In this document: piece by piece, positions 18,512 to 26,980 of the stretch | Layout of the letters: each line of letters begins with the position of its first letter | Position numbering within the stretch: the first letter of the stretch is position 1 | Assembly (NCBI GenBank): GCA_000296795.1 | Contig: BAFH01000003.1 | Span: 1,841,290 to 1,905,289 of the forward strand | Length of the DNA: 64,000 nucleotides | Source: Candidatus Jettenia caeni | Lineage (GTDB): Bacteria > Planctomycetota > Brocadiia > Brocadiales > Brocadiaceae | Reading direction: 5' to 3' | Notes under the pieces: generated by a model | What the model saw: only the letters and a program-made list of their open reading frames with translations | Told to the model about the DNA's origin: nothing | Databases searched by the model: none | Position numbers and translations under genes: made by a program

Positions 18512-18535
18512 CTGTTTTTCAAGGAGTTGCTGCAG

Positions 18536-19892
18536 ATGGGATGGCTTACCTCCAGTATCATCGCTTGTATTACCATGACGGTACTCATGTATATCCCTCC
18601 ATCAGATTTACCACATACCTATATGCCACATATTATGATGGTTATTGCTACGATGACAGTACTGGGTCCGAGAATACCATTTTTTGCTTGTGCATACGAG
18701 TCCATTAAGAACCGCTTCGCTAATATGTGCGTACTCATTTCCTTAGGTACCTTTGCTGCATATATATACGGCAATCTGGCAGTTCAAGGTATCTTTGCTC
18801 TACCGGAACATGCCTTTTTCATGACGGCAGTAATGCTCGTTACCTTCAGTCATATCGGAGAATATATGGGGGAACGGGTAAAGAAGAGGGCAGATTGGGT
18901 ACTCCGGAATTCCATGGAGTTAAAAACTAACAGACCTTCAGTATTGATAAGGGGGAAGGAATACATGGATCATGGACATTCCCTGAGGTTTATAGACAGG
19001 GTGTCCCATACATTTATTCTCATAGCAGTTGGTTTATCTGTAGTAACCTTTGTTTGCTGGTACTTTTTCTTTTATCACCTTGCCGGAGAGTATCCCTCTT
19101 TGTGGGCATTGAAGATGTCAATCGCAGTGCTCGTAATTGCATGTCCGTGCTCTCTCTGCTGGGTTACCCCTGCAGCCACTATGGTTGCTAGTAGAATAGG
19201 GTTGAATCATTCTATCATTATCAAACATTCCACCACATTTGAAAAGATTGCAGAGTTAAATGTGCTGGTATTTGATATGAATGGGTTAAAACAAGATGTT
19301 CTATTACACTTGAAAAGAATGGGTATAAGGGTTGTCATGATGACGGAGGACCGTGAGCAGACAACAAGGTTTGCAGTGTCAGGGATAGGTGTTGATGAGC
19401 ACTATAACAGGATATCGCCTGATGAAAAAAGAGCGGTCATAGAGCGATTTCAGCGGCAGGGCATGAAGGTTGGTGTGGTTAGTAATAGTGGCTCTGATAT
19501 TTCCTCACTAACACAACCCGATGTGAGGATTATGCTTGGCGCAGAAATGGATGTCACAAAAGGGCACGGAGATATTATCTTAATAAAGAATGACTTGATG
19601 GATGTGGTAAAGACGGTCCAACTGGGACGCAGAACTGTTATCGAAAATAAAACAGAATGTCTTTTGGGCCTTTTTGTTTAATGTATTAGGAATTCCCATT
19701 GCAGCAGGGGCCTTCTATCCGATTTTTGGTATAAGTCTGAAATCAGAATATGCAGAGTTAGCAATGATACTTTCCTCTACCCTGGTTGTCATCAATTCCC
19801 TTGGATTACGTTTTCCCCGCTCGTTCCAACGCTCTGCGTTGGAACGTACCACGAGACGCTCTGCGTCATACCTACCATATAATCGGATCTAA
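18536..19892 (+). pseudogene. P1B-type ATPase stripped of A and N domains, with a C-terminal frameshift
   Basis: The frame starts at ATG 18536 (AAGGAG nine bases upstream) and stays open for 381 codons to 19681. Recognisable parts: transmembrane helices with IKNRFANMCVLISLGTFAAY, the metal site VIACPCSLCWVTPA and the following helix. Missing: the actuator loop (TGE), the whole nucleotide-binding domain, and DKTGT, which is replaced by VFDMNG. TGDN is replaced by MMTEDRE, and GDGxNDAPAL by SNSGSDISSL. A one-base shift in AAAACAG near 19650 puts the last helices (QNVFWAFLFNVLGIPIAAG) into another frame, which then runs into REP DNA and stops at 19892. Interpretation: either a decaying ATPase or a frame-conserved pseudo-ATPase that lost its tail recently. 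Confidence 0.75.
19822..19846. repeat. REP palindrome downstream of RAYT copy 1
   Basis: cgttccaacgc and gcgttggaacg form 11-bp perfect arms around tct. The same half-sequence (ctcgttccaacgctctgcgt) occurs singly at 26374-26393, and in inverted form at 20431-20450 and 26981-27000, always bordering a RAYT gene. The palindrome has overwritten the 3' end of the P-type ATPase remnant. Confidence 0.75.
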
Positions 19893-20408
19893 TTCCAAAA
19901 TTGAATTATCATTGTTTATAAAATTCCTTGCACTTGAATAAATCCAACTGACAGGGTCATCCACATAGCCACTTCTTACCGGATTGTAATGGATATACTC
20001 TATCTTCTGCCTCATCATTGCTTCAGATTGTATTCGTTGTGGATGAAATCCTTCTTGCCATAATTGGTGTGTTCTATAGCGTTTAAAACTTTTCTTCTCT
20101 TCCTGAAGCTGATTCAGAAGCCATGTAATTTTTCCTAATAGGGCAGAGTCAATGATCCTTCTTGCTGTATAGGACTTAAATCGTCCAATATTTTTACTGA
20201 GTTCTTCTGATGCAGCTATCATGTGGAGATGGTTTTCAAGGATAACGTATGCATAGAGCTTGAATAATCCATCACTTCTGAGAAAACGAAGGCTTTCTGC
20301 TGCTATCTCAAACATGTATGGTGTGGTAAAGATGGGGATCCAGTTAACGGTGGTACAGGTGATAAAGTAGGGACTGGAATCATGAAAATGTTTATATCGG
20401 CTTCTCAT
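19872..20408 (-). CDS. REP-associated tyrosine transposase (RAYT), copy 1
   Basis: 178 residues. The Y1/HUH metal site is ENHLHMIAAS (His-x-His, residues 57-60). The catalytic Tyr is probably in KSYTARRI or, as in other RAYTs, in the late helix with EYIHYNPVRSGYV. Also present: N-terminal HFHDSSPYFITCTTVNW and LWQEGFHPQRIQSE. Members of this IS200-like domesticated family act on REP palindromes. Both flanks carry REP half-sites (19822-19846 and 20431-20450), as expected. This copy is intact; a second copy at 26399-26934 is frameshifted. Confidence 0.9.
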   Translation of the reverse strand: MRSRYKHFHDSSPYFITCTTVNWIPIFTTPYMFEIAAESLRFLRSDGLFKLYAYVILENHLHMIAASEELSKNIGRFKSYTARRIIDSALLGKITWLLNQLQEEKKSFKRYRTHQLWQEGFHPQRIQSEAMMRQKIEYIHYNPVRSGYVDDPVSWIYSSARNFINNDNSILELDPIIW

Positions 20409-20430
20409 GTTTTACTATCCAGTATACAGG

Positions 20431-23749: not shown

Positions 23750-24772
23750 TTATCTTTTATGGCAAACGGTACATTCAATACCAATATCATCAAGAGAAGG
23801 ATGGGGTGGGTTGGGGGGTCCGCCAGGATGACACTCCAGGCATGGTAATCCTGTAAAAGGTGGATGAGGAGAATCAATAGCTGATGGATGCGTCGGATCA
23901 GGATGGCATACCGTACATGAAACATTTGATACAGGAATATGGCAATTTCGACAGTGACGATTTCTTGGGCTACCCCAAGAGGCTACATGGTTTAAAGGAG
24001 TTGTACTCTCATGACATCGGACACAAAAGTCCTCTTGATGACAAACCATACATTTCTTCCGATCCCATGATGCAGCAAATCCGTGAGTTCTTCTCCGCCA
24101 TGCATTATTATGACTTCTGGGTTTTTGGTCTTGATGGCAGTTAACACATGAATCTAGGCTCTCATGGCACCGTTTACAGTAATCTTGATTATAATAAAAT
24201 TCATTTCCATGCTTTTGTATCCATAGTGGGTCATCGTGATTAACCCAGCGGTCTTCATGGTAGAGGGGCATACGATCCTTTCGAATGTACTTATGGCAAA
24301 CATTGCATGCGATCCTTTCCTTCCCTCTTTTCCTGTGACATGGCATGCAGGTATTGTACATGGTAGGAAGTATATCAGGAGTAATGGTATCTCTCTTCTC
24401 AATGCCTACATGGCATTGATTACATGCTACGTTATTTTCCAGATGTACCTTATGGGTAAATTTTAATTCCTGATATTTTTTGGGTATAACATGCTTAACC
24501 GTTATTTTCATTCCGGGTTTCGTATGGCAAAACAAGCAAGATTGTAGATTTTTGGTATCATAATATTTCATATGACAAATAAGGCATTTTGCCATTTTAG
24601 GCCAATCCGGTTGAAGATCATCTTTATAGGAATGACAGAAGTTACAGTCCTTTAAGCCTCTTTCCATATGCTTGGCATGGCTGTAATGGATCTCAGACTC
24701 TTTACAACCTCCTAATATCGTTATCATAACGAATACCATTAAAAAAACTAAGTAATAAGATTTTTTTATCAT
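23750..24772 (-). CDS. 14-haem c-type cytochrome lipoprotein
   Basis: 340 residues with a signal peptide ending in a lipobox (ITILGGC, Cys 23). Fourteen CxxCH motifs follow, in order CNFCH, CLICH, CLFCH, CNQCH, CMPCH, CNVCH, CKRCH, CVNCH, CMVCH, CVRCH, CRNCH, CTVCH, CLECH, CTVCH; the last ends three residues before the C-terminus. Many additional His residues could act as distal ligands, suggesting a bis-His electron-transfer wire. It is preceded by a barrel protein gene (24862-26235) on the same strand 89 bases upstream, the arrangement of porin-cytochrome conduits. No clear similarity to hydroxylamine or hydrazine oxidoreductases is seen. Probably membrane-anchored and extracytoplasmic. Confidence 0.9.
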   Translation of the reverse strand: MIKKSYYLVFLMVFVMITILGGCKESEIHYSHAKHMERGLKDCNFCHSYKDDLQPDWPKMAKCLICHMKYYDTKNLQSCLFCHTKPGMKITVKHVIPKKYQELKFTHKVHLENNVACNQCHVGIEKRDTITPDILPTMYNTCMPCHRKRGKERIACNVCHKYIRKDRMPLYHEDRWVNHDDPLWIQKHGNEFYYNQDYCKRCHESLDSCVNCHQDQKPRSHNNAWRRRTHGFAASWDRKKCMVCHQEDFCVRCHESTTPLNHVASWGSPRNRHCRNCHIPVSNVSCTVCHPDPTHPSAIDSPHPPFTGLPCLECHPGGPPNPPHPSLDDIGIECTVCHKR

Positions 24773-24861
24773 ACAATATTGGTAATGTAAATTTTATATG
24801 GGAATTTAACAGTAAAAGTACGTACAAGACAATTTCAGAGATAGAACCTCAAATTATCTCA

Positions 24862-26235
24862 TTAAAAGCTTTTGTTATAAGAGACTACCAATTGGTGAAA
24901 GGTCTCTGGGTCTGTATCGCTCACTTCAGATATCCATCGCAGACTCACATTTGATTGTTCTGTTAACAGGTATTTAATCCTCAGGTAATACGTTCTCACA
25001 TTAATTTTCTGTACAACATCTTCTTCCAACTCACTATTTTCAAGAAAAGCAAGATCGTTGCTTCCGGTAAAATTAAATTTATAGAAAGAATAGCCTGTGC
25101 CAAGACCAATATCAAATTTTCCAATTTTTTTATCAAAATCAACATTTGCATCTGTGCTGTGATCAACGCCTTTAATATTCCAGTATTCTACTGTAAATGT
25201 GACCTTGGATTCCTTTAATAAAATATTATATGTCATAAATGAAAAGAAGGTTCTATAATAATCGCGATTGAAGGTATTTTCATCTTCTTTCTCAAGAACA
25301 TTTCTGCGGTCTATGCCACTGGATACTTCAAATTTTTCTCCCCAACCTTTATGTCCTGTCAGACTGATAAGGTCAAAAGGCTCGAAGGTATTCAAGATTT
25401 CAGAAATTGGTGAAATATTATTACTCTGCTCGGCTAATGAATTGAGGAATCTATAGTACGATAGTTGCACACTAGCGTCCCAGTCTATTTTATCCCAGGA
25501 TAATTTAACGAGAAAATCCTTCGATACAGTATTGAGGAGGGTATATCTTCCATAAAAATTTAAGTCTTCGTAGATTCTTTGCCATACATTAAACCCCACT
25601 TCATCATCGATAAACTCGTCATCAATAATACGAACATAATCTAAATTCATACGAGTATCCATAAATGGTCGTATGCTTATTCCACTTCCTGCTACGGTAT
25701 CGAAGTACGTGTTCGTGTATTGAGAAGCCCTTAAGCCACCGAAGACGTAAGTATCAAGAATACCTATCTTCTGTTCATACTTTGCGCCATCAAAGAGAAT
25801 GGTCTCAATTGAGTATTGATACTGACGTCCTACACGGAGGCTGGATTTATCAATAACTGGATCCTTTATGTCTGCATATAAAAAGTAAACACGGCCGTTG
25901 TAACTTCGATCATATGAGTCTAAAATATCCCGAAAAGCTCCATTTTTATCCTCATGTCCATCAAAATCTTCTGATAGTCTTCCAGAGCCAGCTATGGTTA
26001 CTTTATCATGAAAGAAATCTTTAGTCTTAAAGGAGAGATACTCATACATATCATGGTCATTTTCATCTCCTCCCCAGCGGCCTTCGTATTGAGTTCGAAA
26101 GTTTCCCGATATAAAGTCGTTATAGGCAAGGGTATTGGGTTTGGTTATATCGGTATATATCTGAGCGAAGAGTTTAGAAGAAAGCAATAGGGTAAAGAGG
26201 AAGGGAATAGAGAGGCTTTTTCTTAAGTTCTTCAT
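24862..26235 (-). CDS. Outer-membrane beta-barrel protein paired with a multihaem cytochrome
   Basis: Start taken at ATG 26235 (457 residues), because it opens a proper signal peptide (KNLRKSLSIPFLFTLLLSSKLFAQ); upstream in-frame codons give an unlikely extension. The mature protein is a run of amphipathic strands separated by acidic turns (SLRVGRQYQYSIETILFDGA, SGIDRRNVLEKEDENTFNRDYYRTFF, FDIGLGTGYSFYKFN) and ends in HQLVVSYNKSF with a terminal Phe. Size and strand pattern fit a 20- to 22-strand porin such as MtrB/PioB-like sleeves. The adjacent 14-haem lipoprotein gene supports a role as sleeve for an electron conduit, but sequence alone does not prove it. Confidence 0.7.
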   Translation of the reverse strand: MKNLRKSLSIPFLFTLLLSSKLFAQIYTDITKPNTLAYNDFISGNFRTQYEGRWGGDENDHDMYEYLSFKTKDFFHDKVTIAGSGRLSEDFDGHEDKNGAFRDILDSYDRSYNGRVYFLYADIKDPVIDKSSLRVGRQYQYSIETILFDGAKYEQKIGILDTYVFGGLRASQYTNTYFDTVAGSGISIRPFMDTRMNLDYVRIIDDEFIDDEVGFNVWQRIYEDLNFYGRYTLLNTVSKDFLVKLSWDKIDWDASVQLSYYRFLNSLAEQSNNISPISEILNTFEPFDLISLTGHKGWGEKFEVSSGIDRRNVLEKEDENTFNRDYYRTFFSFMTYNILLKESKVTFTVEYWNIKGVDHSTDANVDFDKKIGKFDIGLGTGYSFYKFNFTGSNDLAFLENSELEEDVVQKINVRTYYLRIKYLLTEQSNVSLRWISEVSDTDPETFHQLVVSYNKSF

Positions 26236-26373: not shown

Positions 26374-26393
26374 CTCGTTCCAACGCTCTGCGT
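26374..26393. repeat. REP half-site downstream of RAYT copy 2
   Basis: ctcgttccaacgctctgcgt, identical to the half-site inside 19821-19840 apart from its outer bases. It is followed by the same catacctaccatataatcgg sequence that ends RAYT copy 1. Confidence 0.7.
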
Positions 26394-26398
26394 CATAC

Positions 26399-26934
26399 CT
26401 ACCATATAATCGGATCTAATTCTAAAATTGAACTATCATTGTTAATAAAATTCCTTGCACTTGAATAAATCCAACTAACAGGATCATCCACATAGCCTCT
26501 TCTTACCGGATTGTAGTGAATATACTCTATCTTCTGCCGCATCATCGCTTCAGACTGTATTCGTTGTGGATGAAATCCTTCTTGCCATAATTGGTGTGCT
26601 CTGTCGCGTTTAAAACTCTTTTTCTCTTCCTGAAGCTGATTCAGAAGCCATGTGTTTTTTTCTAACAGGGTAGAATCAATGATCCTTCTCGCTGTATAGG
26701 ATTTGAATCGTCCAGTGTTTTTACTGAGTTCTTCTGAGGCAGCTATCATGTGGAGATGATTTTCAAGGATGACATATGCATAGAGTCTGAATAGTCCATC
26801 GTGTCTAAGAAAATGAAGGCTTTCTACTGCTATTTCAAACATGTGCGATGAAGTAAAGAAGGGATCCAATTAACGGTGGTACAGGTTATGAAGTAGGAAC
26901 AGAAGTCATGGAAATGTTTATACCGGCTTCTCAT
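26399..26934 (-). pseudogene. REP-associated transposase (RAYT), copy 2, frameshifted
   Basis: The sequence parallels copy 1 (19872-20408) throughout, keeping ENHLHMIAASEELSK and EYIHYNPVRRGYV, with scattered substitutions. The true start is ATG 26934 (RSRYKHFHDFCSYFITC). Near 26868 one base is missing relative to copy 1 (GGATCCCTTC against GGATCCCCATC), so the N-terminal 24 codons and the rest are in different frames. An internal restart would give 156 residues with the His-x-His motif intact, but without the first strand. Probably inactive. Confidence 0.8.
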
Positions 26935-26980
26935 GTTTCAATATCCAATGTGAGATGCAGAGCGTCTCAGGTACACTCCA

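Follow-up and report, generated by a model that had tools for sequence, protein, structure and literature searches.

A probable two-gene porin-cytochrome electron conduit in the anammox bacterium Candidatus Jettenia caeni

We identified in the window, by which we mean the whole 64-kb stretch of Candidatus Jettenia caeni DNA under analysis, two adjacent genes that very probably (we would put it at about 85%) encode a two-component porin-cytochrome (Pcc) outer-membrane electron conduit. The original prediction had noted that their layout resembles such conduits, and this resemblance is borne out by the three lines of evidence that lead us to read the pair as a conduit: homology of the barrel and the cytochrome to OmbB- and OmaB-type proteins, a near-perfect pairing of the two genes in relatives, and a wide, plug-less 22-strand model of the barrel. 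Ways for electrons to leave or enter anammox cells carry biotechnological weight. The two-gene porin-cytochrome kind has been known in anammox bacteria since 2014, from Kuenenia, and the window pair is a further member of it.

Shi et al. 2014 (PMC4245776) describe a two-gene pcc cluster in Kuenenia stuttgartiensis, with a class of cytochrome of 338-344 residues and 12-14 haems and with no outer-surface cytochrome gene, and argue that the lack of an outer cytochrome could be compensated by the extra haems. Electrode-dependent oxidation of ammonium by Brocadia, Scalindua and Kuenenia is reported by Shaw et al. 2020 (PMC7188810), whose hypothetical electron-export pathway includes a porin-cytochrome complex. 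Our literature search, by title and start of abstract and with most subscription journals outside its scope, returned no paper on this Jettenia pair. Neither the OmbB/OmaB link with its controls and the all-or-none distribution, nor the CX2CH/CX4CH exchange and the quinol-type neighbours that we describe below, were found in the available parts of PMC4245776 and PMC7188810.

The gene pair and its homologues

The barrel gene (26235-24862) and then the cytochrome gene (24772-23750) are read from the minus strand, with the following features:

24862..26235 (-): outer-membrane barrel (OmbB-like porin), 457 aa, C-terminal Phe
26164..26235 (-): signal-like N-terminus of the barrel, residues 1-24, ending LFA/Q, judged by eye
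23750..24772 (-): 14-haem lipoprotein cytochrome (OmaB-like, longer), 340 aa
24704..24715 (-): lipobox LGGC with Cys23; Gly22-Cys23 is invariant in 22/22 aligned sequences
24773..24861 (-): 89-bp intergenic spacer between barrel and cytochrome
26383..26947 (-): transposase copy, presumably REP-type, directly upstream of the barrel; context, outside the conduit

Several elements of the original prediction could be checked directly, and they stand: a cytochrome gene does follow a 457-residue barrel-like gene (one strand, barrel first, 89 bp apart), the barrel has both a signal-like N-terminus, by eye, and a terminal Phe, and the 14 CxxCH announced for about 320 residues of a lipoprotein cytochrome were counted in the 318 residues from the lipobox Cys23 on, or 22.7 residues per haem. 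The barrel length is that from an ATG, and an upstream TTG start would give 494 aa. The spacer is shorter in many relatives, at up to about 25 bp or with a slight overlap. In the window's genome each gene has a single copy. The pair is a porin-like gene adjoining a multihaem c-type cytochrome gene, as a two-gene Pcc cluster is defined, and no other frame of more than 80 residues in the whole window carries more than one CxxCH.

Like the K. stuttgartiensis cluster, the window pair joins a porin-like gene to a cytochrome of the same class, without an outer-surface cytochrome gene. At the Kuenenia hertensis locus the cytochrome has 338 aa and 14 CxxCH, and the barrel is 64% identical to the window's. 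The window pair is very probably orthologous to the Kuenenia pair, from which it differs in belonging to another genus and in being set between two transposase copies. The second of these copies, which we likewise take to be REP-type, lies at 19856-20421; the two are 87-93% identical, 6.5 kb apart and in direct orientation, and flank the conduit together with a glucoamylase-like and a RelE-like gene (gene names by eye). Close by, at 18527-19681 and at some distance from CusA- and CusB-like genes, lies a P-type-ATPase-like frame which by eye apparently lacks the DKTGT phosphorylation motif and is probably a remnant.

When named genomes were scanned with the barrel profile, 49 loci were confirmed: 20 are Brocadiaceae-type, 4 come from Anammoxibacter and 25 from Desulfuromonadia-type or unclassified Deltaproteobacteria. 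Three of the last 25 end within the barrel gene. In 21 of the 22 that extend beyond it (L098 is the exception), an 8- or 9-haem frame comes directly after the barrel, and a larger frame, with 6-12 CxxCH, is next in line. This order is the gene make-up of OmbB-OmaB-OmcB as given by Shi et al. 2014 (PMC4245776); it is by gene order and haem counts that we call the loci OmbB. The barrel profile aligns with the Desulfuromonadia-type porins (hhalign, 99.3%, E 8e-21, 354 columns; single-sequence E 2e-11) at a pairwise identity of 19-23%, whereas an unrelated porin of the same genome, used as a control, gave E 0.4. For the cytochrome, the profile matched the 8-haem partners with E 1e-17 (single-sequence 2e-13) against 2e-7 for another multihaem protein used as a control, so its score is due in part to the haem motifs. 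Judged by these alignments, the barrel is homologous to the OmbB-type porins of Geobacter-type clusters, and homology of the cytochrome to the 8-haem OmaB-type partner is supported. As in the Geobacter OmbB-OmaB-OmcB cluster, barrel and smaller multihaem partner are adjacent homologues with the barrel first; in contrast to that cluster, the window partner carries 14 haems rather than 8 and is lipid-anchored, and the gene of a 12-haem outer-surface cytochrome is absent from the 64-kb window.

In Shewanella MtrCAB, as in MtoAB and PioAB, a barrel forms a sheath around a multihaem wire, and the window pair is similar to these systems in that working principle. Membership of the MtrAB/PioAB group was rejected: the barrel lies outside the MtrB_PioB family (no match to PF11854 or TIGR03509 at E up to 1) and is shorter than the 635-position MtrB_PioB model, and the genome of the window has no match to this family. 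More generally, Pfam, NCBIfam and the sequences of solved structures gave no named family for the barrel at E up to 1, and one OmbB-like and one OmaB-like protein, searched against the sequences of solved structures, gave no matches.

Model of the barrel and anatomy of the cytochrome

AlphaFold produced a barrel model of moderate confidence (41-row alignment, pLDDT 77.7, pTM 0.69), with pLDDT below 50 for residues 1-38. It has 22 strands, the first of them at residue 42 (signal included), loops of at most 23 residues and no plug. By textbook geometry, a 22-strand barrel would have a backbone diameter of about 40 A; with 16-18 strands it would be 30-34 A, and with 26 strands 47-48 A. A narrow solute porin has 16-18 strands with a constriction loop, and a model of that kind had been named beforehand as the result that would speak against a conduit; what was obtained, at moderate confidence, is a wide and plug-less barrel, and the narrow porin was rejected on its strand number and its longest loop. 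TonB-dependent receptors are similar in barrel size but carry an N-terminal plug domain of more than 100 residues ahead of the first strand, for which the 41 residues before the first strand of the model leave no place, and they were rejected as well.

In structural comparison the model comes nearest to the ushers FimD and PapC, at Z about 19-20, ahead of TonB-dependent receptors (Z 16-19) and Occ porins (up to 17.7); these barrels have 24, 22 and 18 strands, respectively. That ushers and TonB-dependent receptors are the closest folds is expected for any wide barrel, and the absence of MtrB among the matches listed by Foldseek or VIA-align has no bearing either way. A plug-less barrel of such width would be a large hole unless filled, which makes the neighbouring cytochrome its obvious filler; the model therefore leads us to infer that the cytochrome may occupy the lumen.

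Chance as an origin of the run of CxxCH in the cytochrome is ruled out by residue shuffling (2000 times, maximum 3 CxxCH, mean 0.25) and by conservation, all 14 haem sites being kept in the 19 Brocadiaceae rows of a 22-sequence alignment. Site 13 is CX2CH in the window cytochrome but CX4CH in many other Brocadiaceae, which is why a plain CxxCH count finds 13 in many relatives. Beyond the histidines of the CxxCH motifs there are 16 others, which suffices for bis-His ligation of 14 haems; 15 of them are present in 19/19 Brocadiaceae rows and the remaining one in 18/19. Haem 3 and His94 are jointly missing in all three Anammoxibacter-family rows, a co-loss that fits His94 as the putative distal ligand of haem 3. 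The number of haems varies among relatives: L031 has a 13-haem version, while the versions with 16 haems at L016 (the same place as L071) and 17-19 in Anammoxibacter have added C-terminal haem repeats. Among the sequences of solved structures, the cytochrome profile matched cytochrome c7 and other small multihaem proteins, including one alternative complex III subunit, and no match was more than partial.

Distribution and neighbourhood in the order

Among 62 genomes of the order, the barrel was detected in 27 and the cytochrome in 28 (E up to 0.001). In the family of the window (33 genomes), 25 genomes have both genes, 8 have neither and none has a single gene (Fisher p 7e-8, kinship uncorrected). 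The two genes are adjacent, on one strand and with the barrel first in 24 of the 25 pairs; in the remaining one (G036) both are cut by contig ends. Of the 8 genomes without the pair, seven reach a completeness of 92% or more, and two consist of a single contig. Since 8 of 33 genomes do without it, the pair is not essential to anammox; and as it is present or absent as a unit in close relatives, electrode or mineral reduction could be compared between the haves and the have-nots. In a second family, Anammoxibacter (G001 and G002), the cytochrome adjoins the barrel at 5/5 loci, and one genome outside the window's family (G048) has one weak cytochrome match with an internal stop.

The neighbouring genes in relatives tie this conduit family to respiration, direction aside. 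In Jettenia ecosi (L072), the barrel and 14-haem cytochrome genes close a row on one strand that begins with a cytochrome b gene (PF00033, E 1e-23) and continues with those of a 151-aa, a 10-haem, a 5-haem and a Reeler-type protein, in this order. The window's genome has a set similar to these neighbours, but on another contig than the conduit (C4, L115:2778-7256): genes in a row for cytochrome b, a small membrane protein, a multihaem lipoprotein, a 10-haem and a 5-haem protein. At 2 of the 4 Anammoxibacter loci read, a fusion protein of 823-824 aa is encoded downstream of the conduit (L082:4191-6662, L083:8907-11375); it combines 19 haem sites with a cytochrome b of the formate-dehydrogenase-gamma-like kind. 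In a groundwater genus, nrfH-nrfA begins about 60-200 bp after the cytochrome gene in all three loci with downstream sequence, the only ones with nrfA beside the pair among the 24 named loci searched:

L061:2726-5229: nrfH-nrfA downstream of the conduit
L062:8618-10561: nrfH-nrfA downstream of the conduit
L065:6668-8661: nrfH-nrfA downstream of the conduit

A secreted Reeler / choice-of-anchor V protein is encoded upstream of the barrel in 14 of the 17 Brocadiaceae loci whose sequence reaches at least 2.1 kb beyond the barrel on that side, three others being too short there to be counted; the gene is missing in L076, L077 and L079, and L069 has a fragment only. Its copies (L067:5316-5912 and 14 further ones in L062-L078 and L080) have a single haem motif, CX4CH in 14 of the 15 and CXXCH in one. 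The window has no such gene; the rest of the genome offers at best a match of 36% identity. This protein is a possible surface partner of the conduit.

Direction of electron flow, rival readings and a second type of conduit

In the conduit that we propose, Sec would export both proteins, the barrel would form a wide sheath of 22 strands, with no plug of its own, across the outer membrane, and the lipid-anchored 14-haem cytochrome would fill its lumen, so that the haem chain could move electrons between periplasmic cytochromes and the exterior. A location in the anammoxosome was set aside, as a lipoprotein paired with a barrel would be unexpected there. The more likely flow would be outward, fed from the quinol pool via membrane-anchored multihaem cytochromes; we favour it over inward flow by roughly two to one. 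Outward flow agrees with the cytochrome b genes near the conduit in relatives and with the anode activity that has been reported. One might speculate that Brocadiales have a dedicated respiratory chain from quinol to the exterior which ends in this conduit and works without an OmcB-type cytochrome, cytochrome b and membrane-anchored multihaem proteins feeding the 14-haem wire and the Reeler protein making the contact at the cell surface, but so complete a scheme is doubtful and is offered as a tentative one.

The same conduit might instead be used inward, to bring electrons into the periplasm from donors outside the cell, Fe(II) or others, for nitrite or nitrate reduction. The two-gene layout would fit such a use, and mtr clusters that lack a gene for an outer-surface cytochrome, those of Fe(II) oxidation in particular, are noted in PMC4245776; PMC10732223 reports that iron is oxidised by anammox cultures in a nitrate-dependent way, and the nrfH-nrfA genes of the groundwater genus point the same way. 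These, however, adjoin the pair at just 3 of the 24 named loci searched, quinol-type cytochrome b modules being found instead at the J. ecosi and Anammoxibacter loci, and PMC4245776 states that no pcc cluster was known in an Fe(II) oxidiser. We regard inward use as a possibility to be taken seriously, but as unlikely. Two other readings, which would do away with the wire in its sheath, are much less probable. One of them, very improbable, makes the barrel a plain porin for solutes and the cytochrome a carrier of electrons within the periplasm, the two being neighbours by accident. Solute porins such as MOMP and OccD2 do figure in the first Foldseek rows (query-normalised TM 0.33-0.35), and the co-fold of barrel, linker and cytochrome as one chain, for which the Brocadia pituitae locus L078 was read through the stops between the two genes, yielded a pLDDT of 29.9 and a pTM of 0.19 (17-row alignment with no misplaced residue, chosen from 80 random subsets drawn from 28 rows), scores too low to speak for or against insertion of the cytochrome. 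An accidental neighbourhood would nevertheless have to account for the all-or-none pairing and constant order in the window's family and for the multihaem cytochromes beside the homologous porins in 21 of 22 Desulfuromonadia-type loci, and an ordinary porin for 22 strands with short loops and no plug. No more credible, and in our opinion slightly less so, is a barrel that exports the cytochrome or displays it at the surface instead of being its fixed sheath. The lipoprotein signal of the cytochrome and the likeness of the model to ushers, which pass folded subunits, would agree with export, and a secretion role of porin-cytochrome complexes is mentioned, as speculative, in PMC12307469; but the likeness to ushers is one of barrel width only, at 10-12% identity, the model has neither plug nor gating domain, and the loci read have one barrel per cytochrome gene.

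Scalindua is reported as electroactive in PMC7188810, yet, and this counts against the conduit reading, the barrel is absent from all 17 genomes of a further family (f4), probably Scalinduaceae. Five of these 17 genomes have an MtrB-like barrel of 684 aa, and in 3/3 loci read a 252-aa 7-haem lipoprotein is encoded directly upstream of it:

L116:195-2985: MtrB-like barrel and 7-haem lipoprotein
L117:4561-8083: MtrB-like barrel and 7-haem lipoprotein
L119:4033-7487: MtrB-like barrel and 7-haem lipoprotein

The L117 lipoprotein is of the DmsE/MtrA kind (E 1e-47). By its sequences this looks like an MtrAB-type conduit unrelated to the window pair, and its occurrence in another family suggests that conduits have been acquired more than once by anammox bacteria.
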